Shown: one piece after another, positions 557 through 62,947 of the stretch
Layout: each line of letters begins with the position of its first letter
Numbering within the stretch: position 1 is the stretch's first letter
Notes under the pieces: generated by a model
Database searches by the model: none
Told to the model about the DNA's origin: nothing
The model's input: the letters and a program-made list of their open reading frames with translations, nothing else
Origin: Ulota crispa
Lineage: Eukaryota > Streptophyta > Bryopsida > Orthotrichales > Orthotrichaceae
Direction of reading: 5' to 3'
NCBI GenBank assembly: GCA_963920765.1
Contig: OY987242.1
Location: 15,524,002-15,588,001, forward strand
DNA: 64,000 bases
Program-made: the position numbers and the translations under genes

Positions 557-1787
557 TAAGGTAGGAGGTTCTAAAACAGAGCGTTTATCCCCTAAATGTT
601 CAAGAGTGTTTTTCTTGTTTTTGGAAGGTAGTTTTGAAGTTTTTAAATTATCATTGTAAGATCATTATTAAACATCAAAATGAAATCGAAATTGTTGAAT
701 TTTGAACTTCAAGGTTTTTAAATGGCACTACCTCAATAGAATCCAAAATGGATGCGCGGATTTTAAGATATTTGAGATTGAATGATGATGAGTATGGAAT
801 TTTTTTTTTGAGCTGCCCAAAACTTCTAATGCAAATTGGCAATTTTTGGATAAAAACTTGGGAAACAACTACTTAGGATGTTTTAGTGTTTATTGTTGTT
901 GCTTCAAAACCAATGGCCCCTCTTCCAAATCCATGACCACAATTTCACAAATGAGCCTTGCAACGCAATTGTCAAAATGCAACTGTCTCATTCTTTAAAA
1001 AAATCAGCTTTAATTATTGACCAAAAAACATTATGAATGAAAGAATTTTCAATGGTGAATAGATTCTAATTAGTATAACAAAGACATTCCTAGTGAAATT
1101 AGTCCAAAAGCACTTTTAGATATTGTTAGAAGTCCAAATTTCAGAAAAAAAGCCCTTGTTGCCCAAGAAAGTGCCCAAGAGAAATCTTCACTTTTTGCTC
1201 AACTTAATGCCCGTCTTTTCAATGTGGGAACATCTCATAGGCTTTGTGACACTATTCACGACACTATTCATGATAGAAATTGTATGCTTGTGGTTAGCCT
1301 TCCACCAAAAACAAGTGGAATAAGATCTGGAAGAAGTTGAATTTGAATAGTGAAGCTAACTTCAGCGCACAACTTTTCCAAAATTAAAAACCTCAAAAAA
1401 ATAAAATTTGTGCCTTCAACAAGGTTTCAAAGTTTTTGAAAAAAAATTGGACACTAGATTCTTGTGCCTTGGGCATTTAGGGGTTAAGGGCTAAAACTGA
1501 ATTTTGTGGAGGGTAAACTTCTTGAAATATTTTTCAATAAATTTTCCTTGAAAGACAAGAGGAATTGGCATCTATCCCGTAATGTTTCATAAATTTTGAA
1601 GCTTTTTGGACTCTGTTATGCAATTTTGAAGTGGAAAAGTCATAGGTGCTCTAAAGTGGTGCACCTCTTCAAATGTACATCACATGTATATTGTTGAAGG
1701 GCTATGAAAAACAACATGTACAAATTGAGTACATTTGAGGAAGTGCATTGTTTTAGAGCCTGCACCATTTTAGAACCTCCTACCTTA
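557..1787. mobile_element. TIR element, family F (host of a nested element)
   Basis: The ends are a perfect 20-bp inverted repeat: TAAGGTAGGAGGTTCTAAAA at 557-576 and its reverse complement at 1768-1787. The outermost TA on both sides would serve as a 2-bp target duplication, leaving TIRs that start AGGTAGGAGG; this resembles Tc1/mariner-type insertion but is not proof. A partial inverted copy lies at 57954-58177. A TTAA-family element (589-1483) is inserted inside. No transposase is encoded. Confidence 0.7.
589..1483. mobile_element. TTAA-flanked CCCCTAAA element T1, nested in F
   Basis: It starts CCCCTAAATGTTCAAG and ends CTTGGGCATTTAGGGG, flanked by TTAT (585-588) and TTAA (1484-1487). 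The unfilled relative near 58130-58177 reads, in this orientation, ACAGAGCGTCTAAGGGCTG. Here the same flank reads ACAGAGCGTTTAT, element, TTAAGGGCTA. One TTAA-like target has therefore become two, which fixes the element's borders. Length is 895 bp. It is non-coding. Confidence 0.75.
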
Positions 1788-3904: not shown

Positions 3905-5225
3905 CAATAGGATTTTACTCAACTTGGTGGTTTTTCTTTGACTTGAATAAATATCTGGTACGCTAAAAATTGTTTCATGGTAAATTGAAGGTGGACCTAT
4001 AATAACTTCAACAACTTGTTGACCATGAATTGGGCTTTTTTCAAAATTTTGTAGCACCATTTCTCCTTGCTCAATGCAAGTACAAGTATGGATACCTTTG
4101 CTCTACTTTTTACCTTTAAAATACCTAAATATTTTAAAATTAGTGAGAAATCAATTGTGTGGAAAGGGTCTAGTTAAGTGTTGATTATTTTAGGCTAGGT
4201 TTTTTTTGATAGCTGAACATTTTGCGTGGTTTTCCATGAGATTGGGGATTTTGATTAAATAATATTTTTGATACAAAAGGTAGACAAATAGAGTTGATTT
4301 TTAATTGTTTTTAAATGGTCCTTAGATGCTTAAACATGATCCATAGGTTAATAGGATACTACCACTAAAACATTTATGGCCAAGGTACATCCATTTTTTA
4401 AAATACACTCTGAAATCTTACTGAAAATTTTATATTTATATGAGAAGTATTTTCTACTTACTCTTTTTAAACTTGAGGCCATATTTCTATGAAAAACATG
4501 TATGACTTGCATATCCTCTAATGAATATGGATTCTTGAATGAATAATAACAAGAACTTTTATTTATATTGTGTCAAGTTATTTCTCCTCTTATGTGTGTG
4601 TTGAATTATCTTTTTTTGGTAATGAGAAAGTTTCTATGTTAGTACTATGCATTTTTTGTGTAAAGACTAAAGTCATTTTCATTATTATCTCATTGTTTTG
4701 CAATTGTGAAGGATCATTTACTCATTATCACTTGAAGAATGCACACTACCAAGACAAACATTTGAAGATGTATATTGTAATCTTGATGTCTAATAATCCT
4801 AAAGAGTAAGAATTGGCATTAAGAAATTTGTTTATCTCTTCAAATCTGGAGTGTCTTTTGATATTTCAAGAAAATGAAAGTCACCTTCATGATTCTCAAA
4901 AAAATAGCAAATTCTTTTGTTTCTTAAAAAGAAAACAAAAAACAAAATCCCCCACATTTTTTTTTTTTTGTGATTCAACCATTGAATAGTTCAACCTCAA
5001 CTAGAAGTTTGAATTGTGAGCATATTTAAGTTATAGGCTAGAAACCTTGCTATATTGCTCTAATAATACCATAGTGTTGTTGATTTTGCCTCTATAACCT
5101 TTAGCTTTTAATGGTACTAATACATCTCACCCACTTTTTGTATTGACTCTTCTTGGTGATTTTTCACCCTACCTTTCTCTTTCTTTTATGTTCCTCTCCT
5201 CCCTCAAGTCTTCAAGGTCTTTTCA
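3905..5225. other. AT-rich intergenic DNA, nothing recognised
   Basis: Short ORFs occur by chance. I found no terminal repeats, conserved protein or RNA gene. Confidence 0.5.
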
Positions 5226-5377
5226 CACTACAAGAAATTTGTGTCTAAATTGACACGTCCAAATTGACTAATTATGTCCAAAATGACAAAAAATTGTCTA
5301 CAGTGACAAAAATATGTCCAAATCAACTTGTTTGAATCTACAAAAACTGTCTAGTTTGACAATGTTCCCTTGTAGTG
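5226..5377. mobile_element. CACTA-type MITE with TCA target duplication
   Basis: The left end is CACTACAAGAAA (5226-5237) and the right end is TTGTAGTG (ending 5377), the hallmark ends of plant CACTA (EnSpm/CMC) elements. A 3-bp duplication TCA flanks it (5223-5225 and 5378-5380), as expected for this superfamily. Subterminal repeats of the form TGTCCAAATTGAC, TGTCCAAAATGAC and TGTCCAAATCAAC fit the usual transposase-binding arrays. At 152 bp it is non-autonomous. Confidence 0.9.
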
Positions 5378-5380
5378 TCA

Positions 5381-7865
5381 CCTTCCCTTTCCCTACCTAT
5401 TTGATTCCATCCCTCTCTCAAAATTTAGATTATGGTGACAAAATGACCCAATACTTGACACCCAATGCTTTAATAGAGAATTTCAAGTTTTTATGAGTAG
5501 AGAATTTTGAATTTCCCATGACAAACAAGCACTTGCTACTTCATAACAGAGATTGTCTTGCTTATGCTATGCTACTCATATGTGCAATGTGTTTTAATCA
5601 TTAAAAAAATGTAATAGTGCATTTAAAATTTGTGATAAATCAATAAGTTTTAACCAAGTTCATAAAGTTCAAAGAAGTAGGAAAAATTTGGTTTGCTACA
5701 ATTAATTGTTGACTTTATGGCTCATTTTTTGGTGTGTGATTGTTTTTTCTACACTTTGCAACTCATAATTAACAATTTGATGTTGATGTTTAATTTCAAA
5801 CTATTATTATCAAGACTTCTTTTTTATGTAGAACAATACAAAATATTTGTGAAAATTAAAGCATGGTCTCTTATAAAAAGTTGAATTTGGGACTTAAGAC
5901 TTCCAAAATTCATGGAAGATGGTGTATGACACAAAAGCGTCTTTAGGGTGAACTTTGACACTTAAAAATTAGAAGATAATGGCATCCACTTGTTTTTGCA
6001 AAGTATCAAATACTCGGGGGTCACACCTCCTTACGCTTGGGTATCACGTGCATTAATGGGGTATTTAAAGGGATGATATTTATCTTCTCTAAGGTAATTT
6101 TCCCCTCCCTATTTTTAGATGAAAAGCTACTTTTATGTATTTTAGGGTACCTTATGTTTATTTCTAAATGGTTAAGAAGTCTAAATTTTGGCACCTTATT
6201 TTTTTTTACAAATTGCATAGTATTAGAACCTAGCGCAAGAATGCAACAAAGTTTCTACCCTAAATCCTCATTTTCCAAGTGGAATATTGCAAAAAATAAC
6301 TAAATCTTAACTCTAGCGTCCACCATTGTTGTCCTCCTGCAACTTGCACCAAAATTCTACACACCAAAAGAACCTTATATTGCTTCAAACAATCACATAA
6401 ATTCAAACTGTAAACACTAAGTAGACCCTACAAAGTAAAACAAAAATATCAAAACTCTTAAATACCCTAAACCGCCTCTATGATGCTTGCAAAATGCGCC
6501 AAGATGTCAAATTTGATAAGAAGATAACACAAAAACCATGAATTGTAAAGCGCCCAAAACTGCCACTTTCATGCATGTTGTAAGCACGGTGAACACGAAT
6601 GTGAAAGCATGTAGGAATCTAAGGTGCATGAACCCTCAGCAACAGTAGGAACCTAAAGGGCATGCGGGAATCCAAAGACCTCAAACCCTTACCACTAGTA
6701 GGTCATTAGTGTTTCTAGAGTTTTCAACCCTATTCTTGCTAACATTGCTAGCATCCTTGCCACATGTAAAATGAAACCCCTAAACCCTACAAGATTCTCC
6801 TCCACTACATTTGAAAGTGGGATAGAAAATGCAATATCTTTCATCCAAATTGGTCATACAATTATAACCAAAATCATCCTACTAAGCACTTTTAGGGGGA
6901 TCCTATTTTTCTTACCCTATTCTTTTCTACAATATACTAAAGTGGGGGTATTATTTACTACCCTATTTTACATATAATGAAGCAAAAGACACATTTTCAA
7001 TGCTATGGTAGGTATAACAAAAATATAAAATTCACCTCCAATGAATAAAATTGACCATATTTTTTCTCTCATCTAATTTTCTAAAATTTCAATGGTCACC
7101 CCAGAGATCAAATGTACTGCTTGTTGATTTGCTTTAGTTTCATCACTTTCATGTATCGATATTTGGGTTTATTCATAAAAGTAAACAATCTCCTTATCTT
7201 TTGTAGGGTTGTTAAATTTCGTTCACTTATTATGTTGTGAAAGCCTATGATTTTAGTTTAAACGCATTTACATCACTCGAAAAGTTATTTTGAGTTATTT
7301 ATATGACTCTTTGAAAATTCACATACATGGTCTTTGCTTGTAATACTTCTTTATAATTATTGATTTCGAGACCATGGACCCTTAGGACTTTTTGGAATTG
7401 AAGATGAAAGTAATTTGTCATTATTTATTTACTATTTATTTTAAAATTATATTTTAAATACCTTTTAAATGTATAATACTTAGGTCAACAACCAACTTAT
7501 TTTGTTTGTTTAGTATAAAGGTCCATACATACATAAATCCAAAGATTATTTCATTTGGATCTACAAGGTAGAAAGAGAATGACTAGTTTCACCTAGATGA
7601 GATGAGCATCTTCCTATTTCTCCTAAGCTACATAGGAACAACATCAATATGGTTCCTTCTTTGTGTTGTTTACGTGCCTATAGATATGATGACAGGAAAA
7701 AAAAAGGCCTATTCCTCTAAAAGTAAAATCATGTTTCACAATGTGGGTATTTAGACACATAGAAAGCACACACATAGAAAATGTCAACCTAATCAACACT
7801 AATATCACTTGCATTCACAAGTGTGGCTAATCATTCAAAAATTATTCCAGTTTCTTTTTACATTT
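5381..7865. other. AT-rich intergenic DNA, nothing recognised
   Basis: Scattered small ORFs only, none conserved. No paired terminal repeats were found. Confidence 0.45.
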
Positions 7866-11864: not shown

Positions 11865-18080
<6,216 letters not shown>

Positions 18081-22840: not shown

Positions 22841-25557
<2,717 letters not shown>

Positions 25558-29919: not shown

Positions 29920-29923
29920 TTAA

Positions 29924-30932
29924 CCCCTGAAGGACCTTGGAATATCTTGAGCTTCTACAATTTTGCTCTAATTTGAACAAAAAGCCAACATTTTGATAAG
30001 TTGTATCAGTTTTTTTTTGAATTGTAACCGTGTAAAATCAAACTAGGCATGTTAGACATCACATTAGAAAAGAAGATACAACATCTCTTATGGATTGAAA
30101 GATTATAATGTTTGATCAGGAGGGTGTTAAACTATGAAAGTCATTTGAAGTCTTTCAATCCTCTTTTCACATGTCAAATCTAAAAACTTGGTCACCAAAA
30201 AAATATGAGATTAACCCCTATATGTCGAGTAGGACAAAAAATGTCCTTTGGCTCTGAAAAAATATCTTGTGATTCTGAAAAAACTTGTTTTCATCTGATT
30301 TTTTTTTCAGAAGTGACCATAAACACATGGTCCATCATGGAAGACAAAAATTTACCTCATGAGATGCATTCATATTTTTTTGTAACCTAGATTGTGATAA
30401 GGTTCAAAAACATGGTGTTAGGTCCCAAGCTGCCCTTTTTGCAATTTTCATGAGGGCACCATGCACTATTGACTTTTCCAACTTTTTGAAGCAATACTAC
30501 TGGTGTCCATGTGCAAAAACATTGTAGACTGCTATAGGCAAGGCAAGCCACGGTGATCCATCCGTCCTTTAAGGGTTAAAGGGCTTAACATGCATAGCCT
30601 CAATCAATTTATGACTTCTCATAATCTACTCTACAATTTTTTTAAATGAATTTCTAATGTGATTTTTTCTCAAGGATCTAGTGTGTTTGAGGCTCATTCT
30701 CAAGAGCCCTCAACACTACATAAAGTCAAGATTGCAATGGACACCCATGCACAAAATATTGAATAGAAAAATCATAATCAATCATTTGCAAAATTAGATT
30801 GTTGAATTTAAAACTAAACTTCAAAAAGAAAATTTCAAAAATATAAACTACTAAAAATAGTAATATGATAAGGTTTTATTCAACTTCAAAAATTGGTCAA
30901 GGACGTAATCTGTCCTTAGGGTCCTTTAGGGG
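29924..30932. mobile_element. TTAA-flanked element T17, split by a nested G element
   Basis: It begins CCCCTGAAGGACCTTGG after TTAA (29920-29923) and ends GGTCCTTTAGGGG before TTAA (30933-30936). It aligns, reversed, with 3265-3900 and 42759-43389 except for 30215-30576 plus one TTAA. Removing that insert leaves about 643 bp, close to the 631 and 636 bp of the relatives. Confidence 0.85.
30215..30576. mobile_element. TTAA-family element, subfamily G, copy 2, nested in T17
   Basis: It begins CCCCTATATGTCGAGTAGGA and ends CCGTCCTTTAAGGG, with TTAA at 30211-30214 and 30577-30580. The host site in the relative at 43103-43135 (read reversed) is AATATGAGGTTAAAAGACAT. Here it reads AATATGAGA-TTAA-element-TTAA-AGGGC. 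This shows a TTAA target duplication directly. Confidence 0.9.
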
Positions 30933-30936
30933 TTAA

Positions 30937-32851: not shown

Positions 32852-32855
32852 TTAA

Positions 32856-33780
32856 CCCCTAAAGGACCATGGCCTTTATTTTATCAAAAGACACTCAAAA
32901 CTGCCACCTCTATGGCAATGAGTAAAAAAGTTTGAAAATCAAGCATTTTGCATATGTGACCGTAGGATCTTGTGCTAGACTACTATAAGAATGTGTCATA
33001 CAAAACTCAAGAACTTTGACTGCACAAATTGGAAGATATATACATTTAAAGTGTAAAAAATAGCTTTTTTTGCACCTTGCTTGACTAGATTTTTTAACTT
33101 TGAACATTTTTAACTTAAAATTTTTGCACCACAGAGTTTGGAATTCTATTTTTGCATGGTGGGAAGTTGAATTGGGAATCTTGGGAAAAAAAAAAAAAAA
33201 AAAAAAAAACTTAATTTTCATTCTTTAAAAAATCATTGGGTAGAAGAAGGTATGAGATTGAACAAAAACTTAAATTGCTAATAACCCTGCAATGGAATTG
33301 AAATGCAATAATCCCAATGGTGGTATTGTTCTAGAAAGCAAACTTCACCCTCTCCAACAATTTTTTTTGAAAAAAAGTTAAACCCACATTCAAAAATGAA
33401 GTTTACAAGTTATTTTTTCAAGAAGATGCTTGAGTTGCCCAAAATACAAGATTGTCCATAACTTTCTCATAACTAGTCCAAATGGAATGAATCAAAGCTT
33501 CAGATGTAGGCAAGGATACAATCTATAAGAAAAGAAAATTAAACTTTTTTTTCAAGTTTTTATAAGAATTTTTTTTGCTGCCCTTAGTCCCCAAATTTGT
33601 GCTTATTTGGGCATAACTTTTGCTCCTTGGCATCAATTGGAATAAAAGTTATATTTCCCAAAAGCTAATGTGTTTTTCTATCTTCAAAAAAAGTTTCAAA
33701 AAATCAAGACAAAAATTGAGGCCGTAGGTACCTGCCCAAAATCCCATTTGTCCCTCGAAGGGACAATGGTCATTTAGGGG
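32856..33780 (-). mobile_element. TTAA-flanked element T5 (925 bp)
   Basis: It begins CCCCTAAAGGACCATGGCC after TTAA (32852-32855) and ends GGTCATTTAGGGG before TTAA (33781-33784). It aligns over its length, reversed, with 60281-61203 (923 bp). The subterminal hairpin TTTGTCCCTCGAAGGGACAA lies near the right end. It is non-coding. Confidence 0.85.
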
Positions 33781-33784
33781 TTAA

Positions 33785-42669: not shown

Positions 42670-42758
42670 TTAATGTGACTTAAAGTAAAATCTGTCCTTT
42701 TCTATCTCTACCAGGATTGGAGCATGAGCTTCTGCCTTTTCTTGTGCACAGTTTTTAA

Positions 42759-43389
42759 CCCCTAAATGCCCAAGGCACCACATTTTGGTGCCGACAATAT
42801 TTTGAAGTTCAACATATCCTAACTAAGTTGCTATTTTTAGTGTTTAGTATTTAGAGTTATTCTTTTTGAAGTCTAGTTTTAGCATCAAAAACCTGATTTT
42901 GAAATTATTAATTGTGAACTTTTTATTCAAGATTTTGTGCAAGGGTGTCCATTGCAATCTTGACCTTTTTAGTATTGAGAGCTCATGAAAATGAGCCTCA
43001 AATACATTAGATTTTGAAGAAAAATTCACACTTGAAATTCATTTTTAAAAATTGTAAAAGAGATTTTGAAAAGCCATAAATGGATTGGAGTTATGCATGT
43101 TATGTCTTTTAACCTCATATTTTTTTGGCAATCAACATTTTAGATTTGACATGTGAAAAGAAGATTGAAAGACTTGAAGTCATTTTTGTAGTTTTAACAC
43201 CCTCTTAATTAAACATTATAATCTTTCAATCCATAAGAGGTATTGTTGTGTTTTCTTTTCTTGTGTGATGTTTGTATTTATACGGTTACAATTTTAAAAA
43301 AAACCAATACAACTTATCAAAATATTGACTTTTTGTTCAATTTAGAGCAAATTCCTAGAAGCTCCAAAAAGGCCTTGGGCATTTAGGGT
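42759..43389. mobile_element. TTAA-flanked element T3 (631 bp)
   Basis: It begins CCCCTAAATGCCCAAGGCAC after TTAA (42755-42758) and ends GGGCATTTAGGGT before TTAA (43390-43393). Homologous along its length to 3265-3900. It holds an intact unfilled TTAA at about 43107-43110, the site filled by G2 in T17. Confidence 0.85.
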
Positions 43390-43393
43390 TTAA

Positions 43394-46607: not shown

Positions 46608-47345
46608 CCCCTAAAGGATCATTGTCCCTTCAGGGGACAGGTTGGACATCGAGCATGTACCTGTGGCTAAACTACTTTGTGTGATTTTCTGAAACTTTTA
46701 TTGAAGGTGTGGAATTCAAAAATCTACATGGGCATCTAAGATCTTCTTCATCCTGACATTTGACAAAGAAGTTATGCATGAATTTACGAAAATTTGGGGA
46801 TGATTGTCCTTCCGGTCAGCCCAAAACTTTCTTTTAAATTTTATTTTTTTAAAAACTCAAATTTGAAATTGGTTCTTTAGAATTTTTATTCATGAGAAGC
46901 TTTAAATCATTCAATCTCAATCAATGACATGAAAGTTATGAGGAGTTTTTGTTTGCGGGCGGTTATGAAATCTCTACTCTAAGATAAACTTTGAAGTCCT
47001 TTATTTTACTCAATTTTTAATATTTTGGAAAAAAAAATTAAACCAAAGGAAGTAGATTGTTCATCACAACATTATCACCGTTGGGATTTACATTTTTCAT
47101 TTCCATAATTAAATTCTTAACAATTTTGTGTTTTGAATCATTCTCTACTTCTTTTTACTTACTGATTTTTCCCCTATGTTTTATAGTTCCAATTGATTTG
47201 AAAATTCTCCCACACATACCTAACTTGATCTCCTACATGGAAAAAAAAAGCGCAAATTTGGGTAGAGCAATTTTTTTGTTATAAGAGTGGTCAAAGGCTT
47301 TTGAAATTTTTGGGCAACATGGAATTTTTTTGGGAGACCTATGAG
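46608..47345 (+). mobile_element. TTAA-family element T9, right end missing
   Basis: It begins CCCCTAAAGGATCATTGTCC after TTAA (46604-46607), with the subterminal hairpin TGTCCCTTCAGGGGACA. The body matches T8 and T7. No right end is found; it appears truncated near 47345. Confidence 0.55.
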
Positions 47346-54225: not shown

Positions 54226-55498
54226 TTGAGATTATAAAATTGTGCATACACAAGTACAATTTTTGAACATAAAAAAACTTTACAAAGGAAACTAGGCCTC
54301 CAGAAGGCCTCTACTTCTTTATAAAGTGTGACCCATTTATTTGTGCACTATTTTTTTGACCCTACATGGTTGGTTCAAAATGACCAAATGCTTTTAGAGC
54401 CGACTACCTTAATTTAAAAAATATGCAAATTATTGATTATTATACATCCAAAACATCAAAACACGACATTGACTTACCATAGAAAAGCCGGTCACAATCA
54501 GCGCTATTAGTTTCATTTTTGGTTTTTATCTCTACCTGCCAAATACGTGGGTTGTAGGTTGAATTTTTTGTAACCCGTCTTGGATTTTAGTAGTGGGCAA
54601 GTTGTAATACTTTCTCATTTAGTTTAATATTTTGTCTACAAGTTTTTTCTTGCCTAAGAACTTTTAGCTACATGCATGGCAGCTTATTAGGTTATATATG
54701 GCAACTAATAAGTTTAGTTCATATATTCTTCAATTCTGCAAATTGGTGATGTCTAACATCAACCTTCAATAGTTGTTTTATTTTGTTAGTTATAATGCTA
54801 AACTTGGACATTTACAAAGTGTACACTAACAATTTTGTCAAGAAGCTGCTAAAAGATTATTTAGTACATTTGTACATGCGCTAAATCTTGCCATGACACA
54901 ATAACTACAAGTAGTTGTTTGAGGGAGGGCATGTGAGTAAAAAGCGCATTTACACTTTGCATTATAGCTAGATGGGGGGAAATCAAATATAATTATCGGC
55001 TACTCAATTTGTCATAATCTAAGATCCCATCAGTGACAAGGTAGCATGTCAAATTAAACTTCACCTCAAAGGTAATTTTGCATCTTGAAACTTTGGATAC
55101 TTTTTAAACTTTCCGCTTTGCTTTTACAATACAGTTTTAACGCAACCAGATTTGAGATAGAAATTTTGATACCACTAGTTACATTGTGCATCAAAGCAAT
55201 ATTTGAGGGAAATTGAGGTTAGGACGATTGAGCTTTGGGAGTGCAAGAACAAGACTAAGACAAACCAAGCTAAAAACAAACATTGAGGTGGCTATAGTGG
55301 GAAGGTTATAAAAAGCACAGGTTTTGCTTGATGTTTCTTCATATTTGTAGTTCTAAGATTAGCCTGGAATCAACAATATAAACACTAGGCATCTTCCCCT
55401 AAATGCCCCATCGACCATTTTTGGTTGCTCCTCTTTTTTGTGGGCTACCCAACATGAAAAGAAAGATTTTTTGAAAAAAAAAAATCACTTCAAGTTGA
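54226..55498. other. AT-rich intergenic DNA with low-copy repeats
   Basis: Segments at 54228-54275 and 54340-54412 recur near 48395 and 50385. Otherwise nothing is recognised. Confidence 0.4.
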
Positions 55499-55731
55499 CC
55501 CTTAAAGAACAAAGCTACTATGATACATAGTATGTACTTTGCTGTACAACTGGTATTTGCTACCAACAAAAAGTTTAATTTGGGATCTTGACTACCTCAC
55601 TAGAACATTATTGATCTATATTCTAACTTCTTTGTTAATCTCAAATGTAATAAAGGTGTGGATGCACTCCAAATACAAGAAAAATATACCTTATTGTATT
55701 GGTTGCAAAGGGCTACTTTGTCCTTTAGGGG
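55499..55731 (-). mobile_element. 233-bp TTAA MITE, copy 1 (T11)
   Basis: Ends CCCTTAAAGAACAAAGCTAC and CTACTTTGTCCTTTAGGGG, flanked by TTGA (55495-55498) and TTAA (55732-55735). It is the inverted counterpart of 63471-63703, with the same length of 233 bp. Confidence 0.8.
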
Positions 55732-55735
55732 TTAA

Positions 55736-57953: not shown

Positions 57954-58177
57954 GTGCACTTGAAGAGGTGCACTATTTTAGAGCTCTATGTTGTTTCTAA
58001 CTTCAAAATTTCATAACTAATTCCAACAAAGCTCCAAAAAATATGGAACAACTTGGATTAGATGCCAATTCTTCTTGTCTTTTGAGAAAAAATTGTTGAA
58101 AAATATTTCAAGATGTTTCACCTCCTCAAAATTTAGTTTCAGCCCTTAGACGCTCTGTTCATGAGCCTCCTACCTTA
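57954..58177 (-). mobile_element. Partial F element with an empty T1 site
   Basis: Reversed, it starts TAAGGTAGGAGGCTCATGAA and continues ACAGAGCGTCTAAGGGCTGA without the 895-bp insert present at 589-1483. The rest matches 1488-1690. It is cut off by K2. Confidence 0.75.
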
Positions 58178-62157: not shown

Positions 62158-62246
62158 TTACTTTACAAAGACTTGCATATGATCAAAATTGAAAAAACAC
62201 ATTTAGTTTCAATATGGTGGATTTCATATAAGACCTTTTAATTAAC

Positions 62247-62943
62247 CCCTAAAGGACCAACTGTCTCCTCGGGGGACATGGGATTTTGGGCATGTACCTA
62301 TGGCTAAACTACTTTGCGTGATTTTTTGAAACTTTTATGGAAGATGGGGAACTCAAAGATCTACTTGAGCATCTATTTTTATCTTCATTTTGACATTTAT
62401 TGAAGAAGTTAAAAATTAATTTTTGGGAAAAGGTCCAGATCAAGCAGCCCAAAAATTTCTTAAAAATTGCATTAAAAATAAATAAAAACATGAAATGTGC
62501 TCTTGAGACTTATATGTAGGTGGGGGATTTTGAATCATTCAATTTTCATTGATGAGATGAAAGTTATGAGAAGTTTTTGTTTGTGTGTAGGTATGGTTTC
62601 TCTCAAAATCACACCTACCCGCAAACAAAAACTTCTCATAACTTTCATCTCATCAATGAAAATTGAATGATTCAAAACTCCCCACCTATAAATAAGTCTC
62701 AAGAGCGTATTTCATGTTTTTATTTATTTTTAATGTGGGCTGCCTGATCTGGACCTTTTTCCAAAAATTCATTTTTAACTTCTTTAATAAATGTCAAAAT
62801 GAAGAAAAAAATAGATGCCCACGTAGATCTTTGAATTCCCCATCTTCCATAAAAGTTTCAAAAAATCACGCAAAGTAGTTTAGCCATAGGTACATGCGTG
62901 AAATCTGATTTGTCCCCCAAAAGGGGGCTTGGTCCTTTAGGGG
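62247..62943. mobile_element. TTAA-flanked foldback element T7 (697 bp)
   Basis: TTAA at 62243-62246 and 62944-62947; ends CCCCTAAAGGACCAACTGTC and GGCTTGGTCCTTTAGGGG. Both halves are the left-end half of the T8/T9 type, head to head and meeting near 62600, so nearly the whole element is one inverted repeat. The subterminal GTCTCC/GGGGAC stem is present at both ends. Confidence 0.85.
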
Positions 62944-62947
62944 TTAA

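Follow-up and report, generated by a model that had tools for sequence, protein, structure and literature searches.

A stretch of 64,000 nucleotides from the moss Ulota crispa, called the window here, holds one transposable element nested inside another, and raises the question of which kind of transposase moved the inner one. The outer element, F (557..1787, no strand), has the terminal inverted repeat (TIR) AGGTAGGAGGTTCTAAAA and TA on both sides, and is split by the inner element, T1, a non-autonomous TTAA element on the plus strand (589..1483; 895 bp excluding duplications). T1 has a left TIR at 589..605 (plus strand; CCCCTAAATGTTCAAGA, with CCCCTAAATGCCCAAGG as the majority form), a right TIR at 1467..1483 (minus strand; CCTTGGGCATTTAGGGG) and the paired end words TTAACCCCTAAATGCCC...GGGCATTTAGGGGTTAA, and is framed by the left and right copies of a target duplication, TTAT at 585..588 and TTAA at 1484..1487 (neither with a strand). 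The first-pass annotation had proposed that T1 is nested in F, that one TTAA-like tetranucleotide became two on insertion, and that T1 belongs to the piggyBac superfamily, a family best known from animals. The filled site bears out the nesting, as it reads GCG-T-TTAT (585-588), CCCC...GGGG (589-1483), TTAA (1484-1487) and GGGCT. The F relative with an empty site in the same window (57954..58177, minus strand) also reads as had been claimed, namely GCG-T-CTAA-GGGCT from 58177, with the single tetranucleotide CTAA at the T1 target. Within T1, an open stretch of 88 codons (1074..1337, plus strand) is similar in many copies and stop-free in most of the best-scoring copies among those listed; it gave no Pfam match and no similarity in the fetched transposase loci. 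Elsewhere in the window, near 22841, lies a fragment of a plant-type gene that we take to be bZIP from its motif.

The empty F site shows what was present before T1 arrived. Empty F is about 327 bp long; the genome search for it scored the best 40 of 3429 first-look candidates, and TA was found on both sides in the window copy and in 12 of the 16 copies read (20 fetched). The T1 site was read in 25 F copies (the window relative, the 20 fetched copies and 4 places in L009, L011 and L044), and 16 of them carry TTAA there. In four of these copies (L107, L117, L118 and L120) the DNA to the left of an internal TTAA is not F; three of the four end in ...GGGG and differ from each other, and one is T1-like (GGGCGTTTAGGGG). 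The same F target TTAA has probably taken other TTAA elements in these copies, in a case of repeated insertion. The remaining 21 copies are contiguous and hold a single tetranucleotide, as expected if one became two on insertion; this is TTAA in 12 and a variant in 9 (CTAA and TCAA twice each; TTGA, TTGG, TGAA, TTAG and GTAA once each). At this site the F majority reads GAGCG-T-TTAA-GGGCT (GCGTTTAAGGGCT), so that the two filled junctions overlap by exactly TTAA; the TTAT at the left junction in the window is best explained by a change after the insertion. The paralogous sites of other T1 copies, for which the query held one tetranucleotide, gave mixed support. It was good for L019 (TTAA in 2 of 2) and for part of L039 (TTAA in 4 of 12; variants or unlike words in 8, i.e. 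TTGA 3, TAGA 2, TAAA, TCAA and TGA-), and partial for L036 (CTAA, with a gap of 3 bases close by), L033 (TCAA or TCAT) and L046 (TTAA, TTAG, TTAG and CTAG, with gaps nearby); the paralogs of L029 (GAAA twice) and L012 (TAAA) held no TTAA site.

The T1 copies themselves fix the length of the duplication. The copy search, with 557-1787 as query, scored the best 40 of 5296 first-look candidates, and the resulting set of 40 (39 other places and the window copy) is best-scoring and non-random, the ends having played no part in the choice. The majority of 39 copies (L041, which has lost its right end, was omitted) is 908 bp long including duplications, and the 17 bp adjoining TTAA, CCCCTAAATGCCCAAGG, are identical at both ends, which gives T1 a short TIR starting CCC beside TTAA. 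The copies are 89.6-95.2% identical to this majority, and the window copy, at 89.6%, has diverged furthest. Aligning more copies and empty sites, a check that the first-pass annotation had proposed, gave TTAA on both sides in 33 of the 40 T1 copies, alongside the 12 of 21 empty F sites with TTAA. Two further copies have matching odd flanks (L030, CTAA/CTAA; L040, ATAA/ATAA), and they are the only two of the 40 whose right end has a different first base. The other five have the left and right flanks AGAT/TTGA (L012), TTGA/TTAA (L014), TCAT/TTAA (L031), TTGA/TAGA (L041) and TTAT/TTAA (window). Odd sites such as CTAA also occur at animal piggyBac ends, according to the accessible part of PMC10813416. 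The exact TIR core CCCCTAAATGCCCAAGG occurs 2520 times in the genome, preceded by TTAA in 2118 cases (84%) and by VTAA in 97. From the 97 VTAA places, which a search with VTAACCCCTAAATGCCCAAGG returned, we hand-picked 20 away from chromosome ends and located the partner end for 18 (L085 and L093 gave none), taking the longer element where there were two candidate partners (L084, L087 and L097). The identical odd tetranucleotide stood at both ends in 5 of the 18 (CTAA in 2, ATAA in 3; L082, L084, L088, L090 and L099); opposite the others stood TTAA (11), TTAG (1; L092) or an eroded end (1; L096). L086 and L089 both have one extra base before the opposite TTAA and alike flanks, and are therefore not independent. 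At a chance of 3% per copy, five or more matched odd ends among 18 have a binomial P of 1.5e-4, and at 6% a P of 0.003. The GTAA ends are mutations, since TTAA stood opposite in all five with a located partner. A repeated odd outer base implies a 4-bp duplication, and neither a TTAA encoded in the TIR nor a TA duplication would give it. Therefore, the TTAA/TTAA majority, the matched odd-site copies and the empty F sites together establish that T1 makes a target duplication of 4 bp with a preference for TTAA.

This length weighs against three other accounts of T1. Were T1 of the Tc1/mariner type, it would make a TA duplication, its TIR would start from ACCCC and TTAA would be preferred by chance. 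Duplications of TA and of TTAA are indistinguishable in TTAA-flanked copies, and F itself is TA-flanked and resembles the Stowaway/Tc1-mariner-like MITEs, which are TA-flanked elements with TIRs, a likeness that concerns F and not T1; however, the outer base is also repeated in seven odd-site copies (L030, L040, L082, L084, L088, L090 and L099), so that the duplication is not one of TA and has the wrong length, and we regard a Tc1/mariner origin of T1 as highly unlikely. A PIF/Harbinger-type (Tourist-like) element with a 3-bp TWA duplication is extremely improbable, as the flanks do contain TTA and TAA, but these stand as ...TAA on the left and TTA... on the right beside CCCC/GGGG and are not direct repeats, and the empty sites and the odd-site copies fix 4 bp instead of 3. 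The remaining account does without duplication altogether: TTAA would be part of the TIR, and T1 would have spread by other means, for instance segmental duplication. A TIR word could give roughly the observed 84% of exact TIR cores preceded by TTAA, some odd ends are close to chromosome ends and the flanks of L086 and L089 are similar, yet the flanks are unlike between most of the copies shown, the odd tetranucleotides are matched, and the empty F sites already hold one TTAA, which refutes this account for the window copy and leaves it very improbable overall.

Ends of this kind are abundant in the U. crispa genome. Counted exactly on both strands, TTAACCCCTAAATG occurs at 6367 places (control 1), TTAACCCCTAAAGG at 15,411 (control 1), which makes it commoner than the T1 word, and TTAACCCYTCATTGCC at 273 (control 0). 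The shorter word TTAACCCCT occurs at 47,305 places, against 3,579 for the reversed control, an excess of about 43,700 sites; with two ends each this would come to about 22,000 elements, a rough guide in which the elements themselves are uncounted. Six T1-ended elements of 640-654 bp have only 20-48 bp at their ends in common with the 908-bp class. The window holds what may be a T1-ended element from the 640-650 bp class at 42755-43393 (TTAACCCCTAAATG ... CATTTAGGGTTTAA), and further TTAA-flanked inverted pairs with ends of CCCCTAAAGGACC or near it at 29920-30936, 32852-33784, 55495-55735 and 62242-62947. A scan of the window for exact flanked inverted pairs was rejected as evidence for TTAA, as TTAA (8 pairs) did not stand out from other words (AATT 11, TGCA 8, CATG 7; TATA and ATAT thousands, from simple repeat). 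ATAA-flanked T1 ends were also seen about 2-23 kb from chromosome ends (C1:41366996, C3:34062705, C7:23143, C8:21154541, C9:19133028 and C10:20773), perhaps the trace of a single T1 copy carried within a subtelomeric repeat. The T1 TIR includes CCCTAAA, the plant telomere word.

The genome also encodes transposases of the expected kind. The piggyBac transposase domain PF13843 has 120 matches in the U. crispa genome (best E 1.3e-73; the search scored 116 of 527 candidates, all above the cut-off), only 10 of which are free of internal stops, so the transposase genes are mostly broken. Grouping the best 30 loci by nucleotide identity across half the domain gives 28 groups at 80% and 14 at 65%. 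The domain, the flanks and the ends come together in one family, PB_A. It is represented by two loci, one on C3 and one on C10 (L079+L049 and L080+L058), which share 90% identity across about 5.03 kb; the identity begins at TTAACCCCTCATCGCC / TTCACCCCTCATTGCC and stops at most one base from GGCAATGAAGGGTTAA. PB_A is bounded by TTAA and CCC[C/T]TCATTGCC-like ends, the left about 2.5 kb before the PF13843 domain and the right about 1.4 kb beyond it; the second copy has TTCA as its left flank, and the frames are broken in both copies. As it combines TTAA flanks, CCC TIRs and PF13843, PB_A is a piggyBac element.

The ends of PB_A link it to shorter elements. The T3 family, seen in two copies and in a portion of L123, is about 980 bp long with TTAACCCCTCATTGCC ends, and its left end agrees with that of PB_A at 24 of the first 26 bp. 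The first 18 bp of T1 match T3 at 15 positions and PB_A at 13-14, a likeness to PB_A that includes the generic CCCCT; as a background, 10 of 1243 other TTAA-adjacent 18-mers reach 12/18, the best 16, in a test that is not clean and hence yields no P value. In L054, which belongs to another transposase group, GGCGGTGAAGGGTTAA lies downstream. L123 (5.45 kb, TTAACCCCTCATTGCC at both ends) was rejected as an autonomous element, since its right end is occupied by a T3 copy (4481-5442) and none of its frames exceeds 83 codons. The transposase between matching CCCCTAAA ends that the first-pass annotation had looked to did not appear: T1 ends (14 bp, up to 2 substitutions) flanked the domain within 1.5 kb in none of the best 30 transposase loci, a short reach, because the left end of PB_A lies about 2.5 kb before its domain, and one that tests mainly right ends and misses decayed ones. 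The only T1-end match in these 30 loci lies inside the domain of L073, and T1 and the loci have only stretches of 15-25 bp in common. When individual transposase loci were searched for flanking TIR pairs, no more than two weak pairs emerged.

Two loci retain stop-free transposase frames, L125:2351-3769 (472 codons stop to stop, PF13843 E 1.3e-47) and L126:2528-3958 (476 codons stop to stop, E 8e-60), whose products are, to judge by their sequences, piggyBac-type enzymes. The L125 frame matches PDB 6X67, which we take to be the T. ni piggyBac enzyme, at E 3.6e-14, and the piggyBat transposase 9C0F at E 7e-12. It resembles these structures in the transposase domain and in three aspartate-bearing motifs, as its TVDE, TCDN and GGVD align with TIDE, TCDN and GGVD of the structure match, the aspartates of which are presumably the catalytic ones of 6X67; the similarity is nevertheless distant. 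L124-L126 held no TTAACCC or GGGTTAA, within the 5.4-5.5 kb fetched in the case of L125 and L126. The L125 and L126 frames are therefore candidates for tamed piggyBac genes, or are simply pieces with lost ends. A 563-codon frame at C1:1180709 was rejected, as it is not a single open frame in L124.

Taken together, the 4-bp TTAA duplication, the CCC-type ends, the 120 PF13843 matches and PB_A support the superfamily that had been proposed, and T1 is very probably a non-autonomous MITE of the piggyBac superfamily, whose TTAA duplication would have been made by a piggyBac-type transposase acting in trans. Such a transposase, of the DDD type, would bind the T1 TIRs, cut T1 out at its TTAA flanks and join its ends across a target TTAA, which would leave T1 with a TTAA at either side; in the present case, the target would have been a TTAA inside the older, TA-flanked element F. 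Because no transposase was found between T1's own ends within the reach of the search, the superfamily of T1 itself is a matter of strong inference and not of demonstration, as would be the assignment of its movement to a piggyBac transposase and to one lineage of them. T1 could instead have been moved by a TTAA-specific transposase outside piggyBac, of the Sola3 type or from an unknown family, with the piggyBac genes unrelated to it. Sola elements make 4-bp duplications. The lack of a transposase between T1 ends in the best 30 loci within 1.5 kb, the 88-codon stretch without a Pfam match and a Sola row in the accessible part of a fern repeat table (PMC6890710) would fit this alternative; however, PB_A, a piggyBac family of this genome, combines TTAA with a terminal motif like that of T1, and CC[C/T]T beside TTAA is a hallmark of piggyBac in the accessible parts of PMC2872659 and PMC10813416, which makes a mover outside piggyBac unlikely.

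A piggyBac MITE such as T1 has close parallels in corals. The accessible part of PMC2872659 describes coral piggyBac/TTAA MITEs (CMITEs) with a TTAA duplication, CC[C/T]T ends and no transposase of their own, and related full-length piggyBac-like elements in the same genome. As far as this description goes, T1 resembles the CMITEs in all these respects, with piggyBac-like elements in its genome, and differs from them in its moss host, in its end sequence and in that the search turned up no full-length element sharing the ends of T1. PB_A resembles known piggyBac systems in its TTAA target and CCC ends; it measures about 5.03 kb, with both copies broken. The first-pass annotation had suggested that piggyBac is hardly documented in land plants. 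No description from a moss was among the literature matches listed, which is weak evidence of absence, as most subscription journals lie outside the search, and the accessible part of the U. crispa genome note (PMC11803377) makes no mention of transposons, repeats or piggyBac. For land plants at large, in the parts accessible, a fern repeat table lists 1230 PiggyBac-labelled copies (PMC6890710), PiggyBac is listed among plant superfamilies (PMC10794571) and piggyBac is stated to have been identified in plants (PMC10140906). PMC10619864 was rejected as a source, the matches in its accessible part being to 'piggybacking'.

In summary, T1 behaves as a piggyBac MITE would and is most likely one, an element of a kind already known; what is unusual is the moss host and the scale of the load. 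On balance, we lean towards the view that U. crispa, and perhaps mosses at large, carries a long-resident and highly diverse piggyBac radiation, with many transposase lineages, tens of thousands of TTAA ends and a few open frames without recognisable ends nearby, which would be candidate tamed genes. The results also suggest that the repeat libraries of plants may carry TTAA MITEs under wrong labels. Animals are the focus of piggyBac research; the 120 domain matches, the 28 groups among 30 loci and the excess of about 43,700 TTAACCCCT sites make the origin of plant piggyBac elements, vertical or horizontal, their control and their possible taming testable. If this view is true, at least one lineage of land plants would have piggyBac as a native and major superfamily of transposons.
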